Shown: positions 32,233 through 36,700 of the stretch, piece by piece
Layout of the letters: every line of letters begins with the position of its first letter
Position numbering within the stretch: the first letter of the stretch is position 1
NCBI RefSeq assembly: GCF_940670685.1
Contig: NZ_OW711693.1
Location: 620,001 to 684,000, forward strand
Direction: 5' to 3'
DNA: 64,000 nt
From: Anaeropeptidivorans aminofermentans
GTDB lineage: Bacteria; Bacillota; Clostridia; Lachnospirales; UBA5962
The notes under the pieces: model-generated
Databases searched by the model: none
The model's input: only the letters and a program-made list of their open reading frames with translations
What the model was told of the DNA's origin: nothing
Program-made: the position numbers and the translations under genes

Positions 32233-32712
32233 ATGAAAGCATTTTTTCCGTCGGCTGTTCTTGCAATTCTTGTGTTTATAGACCAGCTTACAAAATCTTT
32301 AGCCAGAACAAATTTAATGAATCAAGGGGATTTCAGTATTATAGACGGCATATTAAGTCTTTCTTATCATACAAATCAAGGCATGGCCTTCGGGCTTTTT
32401 AAAGGCGGCAGATGGTTTTTTCTAACCTTTGCCGTAATCATTCTCATGATCGTAATTTATTATTACAGGCGTCTTGGCGAAGATAAAATATCAAAGCTTG
32501 TGAAGGCCTGCCTCATCATAATATGCGCAGGGGCCATAGGCAACTCCATAGACAGGCTTTTAAACGGTTATGTAATTGATTTTTTTAAAACAGAGTTTAT
32601 TAATTTCCCCATATTTAACGTAGCAGATATTTATGTGGTTGTAGGCACCATAAGCCTTGCCCTTTTATATATATTTTTCTCCAAAGAATTAGAAAGTGAT
32701 GACAATGAGTGA
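32233..32712 (+). CDS. lspA: lipoprotein signal peptidase
   Basis: A 159-residue aspartic membrane peptidase (A8) that cuts prolipoprotein signal peptides ahead of the lipid-modified cysteine. Four membrane helices are seen. The conserved boxes are 'IDQLTKSLA', 'NQGMAFGLFK', 'GAIGNSIDRLLNGYVIDFF' (first catalytic Asp) and 'FNVADIYVVVG' (second catalytic Asp). AAAGGGG precedes the ATG. It overlaps rluD by 8 bases; lspA-rluD pairing is usual in Firmicutes. Several probable lipoproteins in the window are its clients. Confidence 0.95.
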   Translation: MKAFFPSAVLAILVFIDQLTKSLARTNLMNQGDFSIIDGILSLSYHTNQGMAFGLFKGGRWFFLTFAVIILMIVIYYYRRLGEDKISKLVKACLIIICAGAIGNSIDRLLNGYVIDFFKTEFINFPIFNVADIYVVVGTISLALLYIFFSKELESDDNE

Positions 32713-33622
32713 AAAATACCTGTTTCATATAGACGAAGAGGAAGGAGAACGTATAGACGTTTTTCTTTCTTTGAATATGAAGGAAAAATCAAGAAACGCT
32801 ATACAAAAGCTGATGGCAGGCGGCATGGTTACGGTAAACGGAAAAATTGTAAAGCCCAGCTACAAGCTTAGCCTTGACGACGAAGTTGCGCTTTTTCTTC
32901 CTGAACCCATAGAGCTTAATATAGAGGCGGAAAATATACCCCTTGATATCGTATATGAAGACGGCGATATCATCATTATCAATAAGCCCCAGGGCATGGT
33001 GGTTCACCCGGCTCCGGGGCATTATACGGGAACCGTCGTTAACGCGCTTATGTATCACTGCAGAAACGGGCTCTCCGGTATTAACGGCGAGCTAAGGCCC
33101 GGTATCGTCCACAGAATCGATAAGGATACCTCAGGAATCATCGTCGCAGCAAAAAACGATATAAGCCATCAAAAATTAAGCGGGCAATTTGCAGAGCACA
33201 GCATAAACAGAAAATATGAGGCTGTCACATTTAATACTATAAAAGAAGAGAGCATTAAAATAGACGCTCCCATAGGCAGAAACCCTCTGAACAGAAAGAA
33301 AATGTGCGTTACTGATAAAAATTCCAAAAGGGCCGTAACTTATATTACTGTATTGGAAAGCTTCGGCAAGTTTACCCATGTGGAAGCAAGGCTTGAAACA
33401 GGCAGAACCCACCAGATTAGGGTTCATCTTTCTTATATGGGTTATCCCATTTTAGGGGATTTGGTTTACGGCTATAAAAAACAGCCCTTTAAATTAAACG
33501 GGCAGGCGCTTCATGCCGGCCTTTTGGGCTTTATCCACCCTGCAACGGGAGAATATATGGAGTTTTCATCGCCCACCCCTGATTATTTTAAGGATATTTT
33601 AAGGATACTCAGAATGCAGTGA
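32705..33622 (+). CDS. rluD: 23S rRNA pseudouridine synthase, RluD family
   Basis: A 305-residue RluA/RluD-type synthase. The N-terminal S4 RNA-binding domain ('RIDVFLSLNMKEKSRNAIQKLMAGGMVTVNGKIVKPSYKL') is followed by the catalytic domain with the invariant Asp in 'GIVHRIDKDTSGIIVAAK', plus 'INKPQGMVVHPAPGH' and 'ETGRTHQIRVHLSYMGYPILGD'. It isomerises uridines in helix 69 of 23S rRNA or a near relative. Three possible starts (GTG 32696, ATG 32699, ATG 32705) all overlap lspA; none has a clear site, so translation is probably coupled. Confidence 0.92.
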   Translation: MSEKYLFHIDEEEGERIDVFLSLNMKEKSRNAIQKLMAGGMVTVNGKIVKPSYKLSLDDEVALFLPEPIELNIEAENIPLDIVYEDGDIIIINKPQGMVVHPAPGHYTGTVVNALMYHCRNGLSGINGELRPGIVHRIDKDTSGIIVAAKNDISHQKLSGQFAEHSINRKYEAVTFNTIKEESIKIDAPIGRNPLNRKKMCVTDKNSKRAVTYITVLESFGKFTHVEARLETGRTHQIRVHLSYMGYPILGDLVYGYKKQPFKLNGQALHAGLLGFIHPATGEYMEFSSPTPDYFKDILRILRMQ

Positions 33623-33633
33623 TTTTCAACAAT

Positions 33634-33772
33634 TATAGTAAATTTAAAGTTAAATAGTAGCAAAGCCGTATATTCACGAAGGCTCAAAAATATACCGTTT
33701 CCGAAGGAAATCCGTGTTTTTGAGCCTGATGGGGATAGGCTTTTGCTGCTTCTTTATGATAAATTTACTATA
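33634..33772. repeat. 139-bp MITE-like element, type A copy 3 (inverted)
   Basis: TATAGTAAATTTAAAG start and AAATTTACTATA end, core reading CCGTTTCCGAAGGAAATCCG, which is the complement of copies 1 and 2. It fills most of the gap between rluD and pyrB and ends 21 bases before the pyrB ribosome binding site. Confidence 0.85.
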
Positions 33773-33803
33773 AAATATGCTCAGGACTTTTAAGAGGTGT
33801 GCT

Positions 33804-34736
33804 ATGGTTATTAAAAGAAAAGACTTTATCGGTCTCAAGGATTTAACTGCTGAAGAAATCCTTTACATTTTAGATACGGCAGAGACCATGAAATACGTGT
33901 TTAACCAAAAGAATAAAAAAGCGCCCCATTTGCAGGGGAAATCCATAGTTCTTCTTTTCTATGAAAATAAATCAAGAACAAAGGTAAGCTATGAGCTTGC
34001 AGGGCAGTACTTAAGCGCCAATATCGTTGATATGACCGTATCCCACTCCCTTGAAGCAAAGGAGAGTATTCTTGATATGGGAAGAATTGTCGACCAGATG
34101 GGGGCGGATTTTATCGTGATACGCCATCCCATGTCGGGAAGCGCCCAGTTTCTTGCGGAAAACGTATCCTCCTGCGTAATCAACGCCGGTGACGGCTTAA
34201 ATGAAAACCCCAGCCAGTCTCTTCTGGACCTTATGACCATAAGGGGCGAGAAAGGAAGGGTTGAAGGGCTTAAAGTAGCCTTAATAGGGGATGTTTTAAA
34301 CAGCAGAGTAGCAAGAAGCAATATATGGGCTCTTTTAAAGCTTGGAGCAGAAGTTTCCGTATCGGGGCCCCTTACTCTTATTCCGGAGGACATCGAAAGC
34401 TTCGGGGTTTCCGTATATATGGACCCGGAAGACGCCGTAAAAGATGCAGACGTTATTATGTCTTTAAGAATGATGCAAGAAGAGGACCAGTATGTAAATA
34501 CTTTGCCTTCTTTTAACGAATATAAGAATTTGTTTGAGATTAATAGCCGCCTTATTGCGGAGGCTAAAAAAGACGTCATTATCATGCACCCGGGGCCTAT
34601 TAAAAGAGGGATTGAAATTTCATCGGGGCTTATAGACTCAAGCCGATGCCTTGTAAATGACCAGATAGCAAACGGCGTAGCCGTAAGAATGGCAATGCTC
34701 TATATTCTTTCTTTAAGGGGAGGGATCATGATATGA
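33804..34736 (+). CDS. pyrB: aspartate carbamoyltransferase homologue with altered active-site motifs
   Basis: A 310-residue homologue of the catalytic chain that condenses carbamoyl phosphate and aspartate. The overall fold signals are intact: 'IVIRHPMSGSAQFLAE', 'LKVALIGDVLNSRVARSNIWALLKLGAEV', 'IIMHPGPIKRGIEI'. Two motifs differ from the family rule. The carbamoyl-phosphate loop S-T-R-T is K56-S-R-T59, and H-P-T-Q is N135-P-S-Q138, so the usual catalytic His (His134 in E. coli) is Asn. The 80s-loop Lys region is also unusual ('SLEAKES'). No pyrI follows. The start is ATG 33804 after GAGGTG. A 4-bp overlap couples it to pyrC. Activity is uncertain. Confidence 0.85.
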   Translation: MVIKRKDFIGLKDLTAEEILYILDTAETMKYVFNQKNKKAPHLQGKSIVLLFYENKSRTKVSYELAGQYLSANIVDMTVSHSLEAKESILDMGRIVDQMGADFIVIRHPMSGSAQFLAENVSSCVINAGDGLNENPSQSLLDLMTIRGEKGRVEGLKVALIGDVLNSRVARSNIWALLKLGAEVSVSGPLTLIPEDIESFGVSVYMDPEDAVKDADVIMSLRMMQEEDQYVNTLPSFNEYKNLFEINSRLIAEAKKDVIIMHPGPIKRGIEISSGLIDSSRCLVNDQIANGVAVRMAMLYILSLRGGIMI

Positions 34737-36004
34737 GATTAATTATAAAAAATGCCTGTATTCCTCATAAAGACGGAAGAGAAGAAATAAAATCTATTGC
34801 AGTTGACGACGGTAAAATCGTTGAAATATCCGAGAAAATAGAAAACGGAGATTCTTTTGTAGACGCAGAAGGAAATTTCGTCCTCCCGGGTCTTATAGAT
34901 ATGGATTGTAATATATGTGACCCGGGATATGAAAATAAAGAAGATATTTTATCTGTATCAAAGGCTGCGGCAAGGGGCGGCTTTACCTCCATAACCTGCC
35001 AGCCTAATACTTTGCCCGTCATCGACAATAAAACCGTTGTAAACTACATCATATCAAAAAGCAAAAAGCAGGCTTCAACCAATATTTATGTATACGGCAG
35101 CATGACAAGAGGTATGGAATGCAGAGAAATGGCAGAAATCGGTGAAATGGTAAACGCAGGCATCGTAGGCCTTTCAGACGGAGGCATATCTATTCCCAAT
35201 GCTTTCTTAATGAGAAATATACTGACATATTCAAAAATGTTCGGCATCCCTGTGATAGCCATGTGCCAGGATAACGATATTGCCAGAGACGGCGTGGCTA
35301 ACAGCGGAAGAATATCAACGGCCTACGGCCTTAAGGGAATACCCAAAGAGGCAGAGGAAACCTATGTTGCAAGAAATATCATCCTTGCAGAGCATACAAG
35401 GGCAAGGCTCCATATTTCCTCCGTTACGACAAAGGGGAGCGTTGAGCTTATCAGAATGGCCAAGAAAAAGGGGATTAATATTACCTGCGAAACCAAGCCC
35501 CATTACTTTACCCTTACAGACGAAAGCATAAAGGGCTATAATACCTTTGCCAAGGTAAGCCCGCCTTTAAGAAGCAAAGAAGACGTAGAGGCAATTAAAG
35601 AAGGCCTTCTTGATGATACCATAGATGTTATTTCAACAGGCCATTCCCCCGATACCATAGAAAGCAAGGATACGGAATTTGACCTTGCAAGCTTTGGCAT
35701 ATCGTCTCTTGAAACCGCCTTTTCCATAAGCTATGATGCCCTTGTTTCCAAAGGGCTTATGACTATGGGCCATTTATGCGAAAAGTTCTGCAAAAATCCG
35801 GCAGAAATACTTAAAATAAATGGCAAAGGAAGGATAAAAGAAGGTTACGACGGGGACATTATTATATTTAATAAAAATAAGTCATATTATATATTACCGG
35901 AAAAATTCGTGTCAAAGGCAAAATATTCTCCTTATAGCGGAAGCGAAATTTGCGGAAAACTCGTATATACTATTGTAAAGGGAGAAATAGTATATTCAAG
36001 CTAG
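34733..36004 (+). CDS. pyrC: dihydroorotase homologue lacking several metal ligands
   Basis: A 423-residue amidohydrolase-fold protein of the 'multifunctional complex type' dihydroorotase family. Landmarks: 'FVLPGLID', 'AAARGGFTSITCQPNT', 'RLHISSVTTKGSVELIRMAKKKGINITCETKPHYFTLTDE', 'SPPLRSKEDVEAIKEG', and an 'FGISSLETAFSISY' tail. The metal-binding H-x-H followed by R is here D58-C-N60 with C62. A second His position is Met177 ('VIAMCQD'), and the catalytic Asp of the T-D-H motif is Gly303 ('STGHSP'). His227 and His257 remain. In Pseudomonas an inactive PyrC' supports PyrB assembly, and this pair may work likewise. A functional dihydroorotase would then lie elsewhere. Confidence 0.85.
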   Translation: MRLIIKNACIPHKDGREEIKSIAVDDGKIVEISEKIENGDSFVDAEGNFVLPGLIDMDCNICDPGYENKEDILSVSKAAARGGFTSITCQPNTLPVIDNKTVVNYIISKSKKQASTNIYVYGSMTRGMECREMAEIGEMVNAGIVGLSDGGISIPNAFLMRNILTYSKMFGIPVIAMCQDNDIARDGVANSGRISTAYGLKGIPKEAEETYVARNIILAEHTRARLHISSVTTKGSVELIRMAKKKGINITCETKPHYFTLTDESIKGYNTFAKVSPPLRSKEDVEAIKEGLLDDTIDVISTGHSPDTIESKDTEFDLASFGISSLETAFSISYDALVSKGLMTMGHLCEKFCKNPAEILKINGKGRIKEGYDGDIIIFNKNKSYYILPEKFVSKAKYSPYSGSEICGKLVYTIVKGEIVYSS

Positions 36005-36013
36005 GAGAGAACT

Positions 36014-36700
36014 ATGAAAAATAAGATTATATTATTTTTAGCCGTTATTTCAATGGCGGTTTTCGGCGGATATATTCTTAATGACACCGTAAATAAGGAG
36101 ATTGATCCTAACTCCATTTCAGGCATATCTCAATTAGCGGGGGTTAAGGGTATTTCCAACAGAATCATAGCAGAAGATGTTCTTATTGAGGCCATGGAAA
36201 CCAATGCAAAGCTTGTGGTAATGGAAGTAGGGGCCAGAGAAAAAATTTACTATGATGACAGCTATTTCAATTCAGAGATTTTCAGAAAAAGCCAGGAAAT
36301 AAGCTTCTACGCCGACGGCGTCTTTACCGTAAGCCTTGAAGGCCTTGGACCGGACAGTATATTGATAGACGACGGGAATAAAACCGTTGCCATTACGATA
36401 GCAAGGCCTGAGCTTTCTTACATAGCCTATGACCCTGAAAAAACCTTATACGGAAATACGGAGAAGGGGCTTCTTCGCTTTGGAGACGTAAAGATATCCA
36501 TGGAGGAATTTAATCAGCTTCAAATAAGGGCAGAAGAGCTTTTAAAGGCAAAAATAAACGGCAATGATTTTATCCGAGAAGCTGAAAAAAGGACGGAAGC
36601 GGCAGCAAAGGAATTGTTTAAGGCGGCCCTTTCCAAAACGGAATTATCTAAGTATGAAATCATAATAATTTTAAAGGGTGAGGAATCTGATTTGGCTTGA
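36014..36700 (+). CDS. DUF4230-like secreted/membrane-anchored protein
   Basis: A 228-residue protein with one N-terminal membrane helix (about 4-22). It resembles the DUF4230 pattern: an extended beta segment 'LVVMEVGAREKIYYDDSYFN', 'FYADGVFTVSLEGLGPDSILIDDGNKTVAITIARPELSYIAYDPEKTLYGNTEKGLLRFGDVKISMEEF', then an amphipathic, charged helix (about 178-215). Function of the family is not established. AGGAGAG precedes the ATG, 9 bases after pyrC, and the end overlaps the acetyltransferase gene, so it is probably in the pyrBC transcript. Confidence 0.65.
   Translation: MKNKIILFLAVISMAVFGGYILNDTVNKEIDPNSISGISQLAGVKGISNRIIAEDVLIEAMETNAKLVVMEVGAREKIYYDDSYFNSEIFRKSQEISFYADGVFTVSLEGLGPDSILIDDGNKTVAITIARPELSYIAYDPEKTLYGNTEKGLLRFGDVKISMEEFNQLQIRAEELLKAKINGNDFIREAEKRTEAAAKELFKAALSKTELSKYEIIIILKGEESDLA

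Follow-up and report, generated by a model that had tools for sequence, protein, structure and literature searches.

A selectively maintained pyrB-pyrC-like gene pair lacking catalytic residues in Anaeropeptidivorans aminofermentans and related bacteria

The gene pair and its genomic setting

The window, by which we mean the whole 64,000-nucleotide stretch analysed here, covers positions 620001-684000 of the single-contig 3.76 Mb genome of Anaeropeptidivorans aminofermentans. Two adjacent genes lie on its forward strand. The first, pyrB' (33804..34736), encodes an aspartate transcarbamylase (ATCase)-like protein without the SxRT and HPxQ motifs, and the second, pyrC' (34733..36004), a protein resembling type-I dihydroorotases (DHOases) without their metal ligands. 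The reading frame of pyrB' is open from 33777, and the internal ATG at 33804, which the first-pass annotation had also taken as the start, agrees with the homologues. The two genes overlap by four bases in a start-stop ATGA. The gene order around them is aroB, lspA, rluD, pyrB', pyrC' and a DUF4230 gene, with lspA and rluD (32233..33622, forward strand) as the upstream neighbours. The DUF4230 protein gene (36014-36700) begins 9 bases past pyrC', and the neighbours at that place vary among most relatives. Between rluD and pyrB' lies a palindromic, MITE-like element some 140 bases long (33633-33773) with terminal TATAGTAAATTTA. At least 40 copies are present in the genome at 91-100% identity (40 of 533 candidates scored), and its RNA has strong predicted folding (z -6.1).

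Both proteins score above curated model cut-offs. PyrB' reaches 324.5 bits (cut-off 263) with the ATCase catalytic subunit models NF002032 and TIGR00670, and PyrC' 369.4 bits (cut-off 279.05) with the dihydroorotase model TIGR00857, so that automatic annotation would call the pair working enzymes. Structure predictions from 12-row alignments (mean pLDDT 83-84) gave a DHOase fold for PyrC' (TM 0.91-0.93 to 4yiw, 3d6n and 3mpg) and an ATCase fold for PyrB' (TM about 0.8 to 6pnz, 3r7l and 3d6n_B). The models thus indicate that both folds are retained.

Elsewhere in the same genome, a canonical pyrB is followed by pyrI, and a canonical pyrC heads the run pyrC-pyrF-carA-carB-pyrK-pyrD (pyrF, car, pyrK, pyrD and pyrI named by eye); one ornithine-type transcarbamylase gene is also present. 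The window pair is therefore extra, and the canonical set rules out that it supplies the sole pyrimidine enzymes of the cell. The first-pass annotation had made its reading depend on finding another pyrB, together with a canonical pyrC, in the genome; both are there. Downstream of the canonical pyrBI lie three mutually similar ORFs, each some 150-160 aa long (L004, 8341-8805, 14900-15388 and 15521-15976), which resemble IS200/REP-type transposases by eye. A third dihydroorotase-superfamily gene (L009, G000:C1:1545922-1547172) has 30% identity to PyrC' and is hydantoinase-like by eye.

We surveyed 28 pair-carrying genomes, a subset that includes the window's own and was picked for isolates and longer contigs. 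Canonical PyrB (with STRT and HPTQ) and canonical PyrC were each found in 28/28. Canonical pyrB is adjoined by pyrI in 15 of these genomes and by canonical pyrC in the other 13, and so has its own partner in each. In a separate census of 57 genomes, canonical PyrC was not seen in G001, and the second match in G016 (L218) is of a divergent type.

Residues lost and kept

Residues of PyrC' were mapped by alignment to Aquifex numbering, with the ligand list taken from PMC3880350. All positions given below are on the forward strand. Codons 58-62 (34904..34918) read DCNIC in place of HxHxR (His61, His63, Arg65), which creates C59xxC62. Further along, Gly replaces the zinc ligand Asp153 (codon 150, 35180..35182), Met replaces His180 and is followed by Cys178, the counterpart of Aquifex Cys181 (codons 177-178, 35261..35266), Ser replaces His232 (codon 230, 35420..35422), and Gly replaces Asp305 (codon 303, 35639..35641). 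None of the six type-I metal ligands is retained, His61/His63/Asp153/His180/His232/Asp305 having become Asp/Asn/Gly/Met/Ser/Gly, and His309 is changed as well (Asp307).

In PyrB', KSRT stands in place of STRT (33969..33980, codons 65-68 of the frame from 33777), and the His of HPxQ (His134 in E. coli) has been replaced by Asn (codon 144, 34206..34208), giving NPSQ. SxRT, HPxQ and HxLP are described as characteristic of every known transcarbamylase (PMC4581275, in part). The first-pass annotation had seen KSRT and NPSQ in PyrB, and in PyrC DCN for HxH, Cys62 for Arg65, Met177 for His180 and Gly303 for Asp305, which it named as the catalytic Asp. All are present, and its claim of catalytic loss in both proteins was right but understated, the changes of Asp153 to Gly150, His232 to Ser230, His309 to Asp307 and PyrB Lys84 having to be added.

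The same losses were followed through 72 distinct PyrC' sequences and 72 PyrB' rows, counted after identical rows had been merged; L027, L058 and L071 are partial, the fragment L108 was excluded, and L009 and L218, as other amidohydrolases, were kept out of the degenerate set. The alpha metal site (His61, His63, Asp153) is intact in none of the 72 PyrC' sequences. In Aquifex DHOase this is the site that the enzyme needs, the metal-free enzyme being inactive (PMC3880350, in part). Asp153 and Arg65 are lost in all 72 and His63 in 71, followed by Asp305 (63), His232 (34), His180 (33) and His61 (29). Gly recurs at Asp153 (64/72) and at Asp305 (58/72), and the His63 position is variable, carrying Asn, Lys, Glu, Asp, Ser, Thr, Arg or another residue. 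Asp305 is retained in 9/72, with Gly303 standing there in the window. None of the six ligands is left in 24/72 sequences; three or four are retained in 33/72, and some PyrC' proteins might for that reason bind metal.

We took 70 positions nearly invariant across 61 canonical PyrC sequences and counted a position as kept at 90% or more. In PyrC', none of nine listed active-site positions was kept, against 33 of 61 others (p 0.0025), and selection on the old catalytic site has therefore been lost. The test used 73 rows, L193 being a second reading of L052's gene, which became 72 after merging.

The pattern in PyrB' is different. The HPxQ His is gone in 72/72 rows, replaced by Asn, Asp or Ser, with Asn in 63/72. 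The window's change of Ser52 to Lys is rare in the clade, Ser being retained in 61 of the 69 rows with a letter there. Thr55 is lost in most rows (Ala in 47/69). At the column of Lys84, a residue that transcarbamylases take, like Ser80, from the neighbouring chain, the window has Ala, with Lys95 adjoining, and Lys occurs in 8/72 rows, in a poorly aligned loop where the column is uncertain by one. Retention is high at Arg54 (68/69 rows), Arg105 (69/71), Gln137 (69/72) and Arg167 (72/72), and the equivalent of Asp100, a trimer contact in E. coli, is present in all 70 rows with a letter there. With residue roles taken from PMC4581275 (in part), the alignment indicates that PyrB' retains the phosphate- and carboxylate-holding residues of the transcarbamylase site without its His, and mostly without its Thr and Lys. 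Among 73 positions nearly invariant across 39 canonical rows, the listed active-site positions were retained at 4/10, compared with 34/63 for the others (p 0.51). Ligand binding by PyrB' is thus a guess, since retention in the active site is not above that of other conserved positions.

PyrC' has also gained residues. Eight columns carry clade-specific gains at a frequency of at least 78%, and three of these are cysteines, at 59 (69/72), 62 (58/72) and 128 (60/72), which sit at or just past the points where the predicted strands 54-59 and 117-123 end. The third lies in the triplet MEC of the window (codons 128-130, 35114..35122), where the cysteine found at 128 in most relatives is at 130 instead. 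Cys178, after predicted strand 174-177, is retained in 60/72, and its Aquifex counterpart Cys181 coordinated zinc when the enzyme was studied in isolation (PMC3880350, in part). Across the 72 sequences, 41 have all four cysteine positions, 26 have three, none has two and five have one. Total cysteine content is not elevated (1.97% vs 1.84%). The five sequences with a single position are mutually similar, and they also lack Cys291 of PyrB' (codon 291, 34647..34649), a residue gained in 57/72 PyrB' rows where 39/39 canonical rows have Ser. Position 291 is Val or Phe in these five and Ser in the Vallitalea-like branch. A random-placement simulation of the cysteine pattern gave 0.0045, having been run after the pattern was seen, and the events were too few for a paired test to decide. 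A putative cysteine site (C59xxC62, the 128-130 Cys and C178) that replaced the His/Asp zinc centre, as a metal or iron-sulphur site or a redox switch in a redox- or metabolite-sensing complex made from a dead enzyme pair, is a doubtful proposition at present, and we treat the pattern as a lead.

Distribution, origin and selection

A census within the order covered 57 genomes, the window's own included, and 13 of them, from 10 of 25 coded families, carry a degenerate PyrC'. Each genome in this census was classed by its best PyrC match; 6/57 gave no match, and all matches in G023, G028 and G048 were weak. A scan of species representatives, of which the best 80 of 331 relatives were taken, returned 67 loci of the degenerate type and 13 canonical ones, and the breadth of the pair is accordingly a lower bound. 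Among the carriers are Anaerotignum, Vallitalea, Clostridium sp. MD294, a Tyzzerella and many MAGs. Since 72 distinct sequences repeat the losses together with the open frames and the pairing, chance, a sequencing error or a single odd gene is ruled out.

With catalytic columns masked, the degenerate rows fall into a single group in the PyrC tree (SH-aLRT 99; 42 of 91 rows) and again in the PyrB tree (SH-aLRT 99; 27 of 69 rows), which rules out independent decay in each lineage. Whether the changes are clade-wide, a question that the first-pass annotation had put to the homologues, can thus be answered: they run throughout the clade and have one origin. The canonical group next to the PyrC' clade comes from Thermosediminibacter-like Firmicutes, Nitrospirota and a small number of MAGs, and the pair genomes' own canonical PyrC is not part of it; this neighbouring group was perhaps favoured by sampling, since the rows came from a scan with the degenerate profile. 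All nine members of the Vallitalea-like branch retain Asp305, as an earlier stage would. In G001, a genome of the same family (locus L027), a stop-filled insert of roughly 757 bases interrupts pyrC' after residue 70 and before residue 72; either this relative may have lost the pair or its contig is misassembled. From its presence in 13/57 genomes of the order and the split in G001, the pair is dispensable.

Where the pair is kept, it is kept under constraint. Over 29 close pairs, the median dN/dS was 0.094 (0.027-0.182) for pyrC' and 0.037 (0-0.093) for pyrB'; the comparison genes rluD (20 pairs) and lspA (17 pairs) stood at 0.082 and 0.100. These ratios were computed by NG86 for close pairs only, which are non-independent, and distant pairs have near-saturated dS and higher ratios. 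Both pyrB' and pyrC' are kept by purifying selection, and plain pseudogene decay is rejected on the same ratios.

The two genes are adjacent in 67/67 loci showing both (the window and the scan loci), with the 4-bp overlap in 44. Among 58 loci with enough upstream DNA, rluD lies within 4 kb upstream of the pair in 51 and is absent in 7. Downstream genes vary from lineage to lineage and pointed to no function, and no consistent new metabolic neighbour was found across the loci. Only one of the 13 canonical loci, L111, has lspA-rluD before pyrB-pyrC-carB-pyrK-pyrD, with rluD 1191 bases upstream (later genes named by eye); in the other 12, some of which have too little flank, rluD was not seen upstream. 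A pyrR-like gene lies upstream of the pair in four Vallitalea-like loci (L091, L098, L100 and L102). Because of the L111 order, these pyrR-like genes and the order lspA-rluD-pyrR in Bacillus, the pair likely occupies the old pyr-operon site, a reading drawn from thinly sampled loci. A uracil-permease-like gene is also upstream in L091, L098 and L100, where searches with Rfam gave PyrR leaders at 48.7, 48.0 and 52.8 bits, all just below the gathering score of 54. The same searches gave no PyrR leader in L102 or L087 and found no leader of pyrimidine genes beside the window pair; in eight loci, none reached the gathering threshold. No pyrR lies beside the window pair. The two Vallitalea genomes with L091 and L100 have one more gene upstream of pyrB', separating it from the uracil permease gene; by eye its product is glycosyl-hydrolase-like and has S-layer-like repeats.

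Relation to known systems and possible roles

A Pseudomonas genome carries a working dihydroorotase besides its PyrC', a feature that the present genome shares. The Pseudomonas class A2 ATCase, with which the first-pass annotation had compared the pair, resembles it in combining pyrB with a catalytically dead pyrC homologue (PMC7053772, in part). The class A2 complex is a dodecamer with six copies each of PyrB and PyrC'. The comparison holds for the dead PyrC' beside pyrB and fails for its partner, since the Pseudomonas PyrB is intact and competent in the complex, whereas here PyrB' is degenerate too and a separate ATCase gene is present (PMC7053772, in part). Class A2 thus shares with this pair the inactive DHOase homologue beside pyrB, and not the intact PyrB. 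Furthermore, the PyrC' clade adjoins canonical type-I DHOases in our tree, which was built without Pseudomonas PyrC'.

The class A1 ATCase-DHOase of Aquifex aeolicus is alike in both protein families, in the adjacency of the two genes noted here, and in predicted folds, 3d6n chains being among the best matches; both Aquifex subunits are active in the complex (PMC3880350, in part), whereas in the present pair PyrC' lacks the alpha zinc site and PyrB' the HPxQ His. The fungal CAD-like pseudo-DHOase, as PMC7053772 describes it, is a domain fused beside active CPSase and ATCase, and has no degenerate ATCase as its partner. In the open-access papers searched, we found no description of a doubly inactive ATCase-DHOase pair.

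Because related bacteria also keep the pair without its catalytic residues, a new and perhaps non-enzymatic job is probable. We propose that the pair is a non-catalytic complex derived from ATCase-DHOase, with a regulatory or sensing role, a reading to which we give an even chance as a whole. It would be an ancient paralogue of the ATCase-dihydroorotase enzyme in which both subunits have, very probably, lost their named chemistry. Association between PyrB' and PyrC' would still be formed, and that the two assemble with each other is moderately probable. PyrC' would serve as a scaffold for PyrB', which, having retained its phosphate- and carboxylate-holding arginines, may still bind a negatively charged metabolite, be it carbamoyl phosphate, aspartate, carbamoyl-aspartate or a nucleotide, with no turnover. 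The complex could then sense or regulate pyrimidine or carbamoyl-phosphate metabolism, although a sensing role taken by itself is only tentatively assigned. The pyrR-like genes of the four Vallitalea-like loci, with leaders just short of the threshold in three, speak for this reading, and the absence of both beside the window pair speaks against it. An anion-binding PyrB' on a PyrC' scaffold, sensing pyrimidine or carbamoyl-phosphate status, would be the most economical account.

Two of the three readings offered by the first-pass annotation, a structural or regulatory pair and a pair with a changed function, still stand. The latter would be a changed enzyme pair in which PyrB' applies its retained arginines to a different substrate, and a new centre, perhaps built on cysteines, replaces the His/Asp zinc site of PyrC'. 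The low dN/dS would suit it, as would the fixed new pocket residues, namely Asn at His134 in PyrB' and, in PyrC', Gly at Asp153 and Asp305 and Cys at 59, 62 and 128. The complete loss of retention at the listed PyrC' active-site positions (0/9), several of which drift freely (e.g. His63), and the lack of a consistent new metabolic neighbour speak against it, and we consider it rather unlikely. A structural role, with PyrC' or PyrB' stabilising canonical PyrB or PyrC, has a precedent in P. aeruginosa, whose PyrC' does so for its PyrB (PMC7053772, in part). Here, however, the pair genes stay together and away from the canonical genes, many genomes of the order manage without them, and canonical pyrB is already partnered in all 28 surveyed genomes, which makes this quite improbable.

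The remaining reading of the first-pass annotation, an unusual subfamily of pyrimidine enzymes active despite the substitutions, draws on the scores of both proteins above curated equivalog or subfamily cut-offs. It is very unlikely given clade-wide changes of single origin, the loss of the metal site and of the HPxQ His in every member, and the canonical set in 28/28 surveyed genomes. That the genes are functionless, decaying relics, as the varied replacements at ligand positions, the split gene in G001 and the patchy distribution (13/57) might suggest, is scarcely credible when 10 of 25 sampled families have the paired genes with their frames open and dN/dS lies far under 1.

If the pair is, as we favour, a non-catalytic complex, PyrB' and PyrC' labelled as enzymes would mislead metabolic models. 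Pseudo-dihydroorotases are known; what we did not find described in the open-access papers searched is a partner transcarbamylase that is also degenerate, yet under selection in many lineages. The pair thereby offers a clean case for following the fate of a two-subunit metabolic enzyme after its chemistry has been lost.
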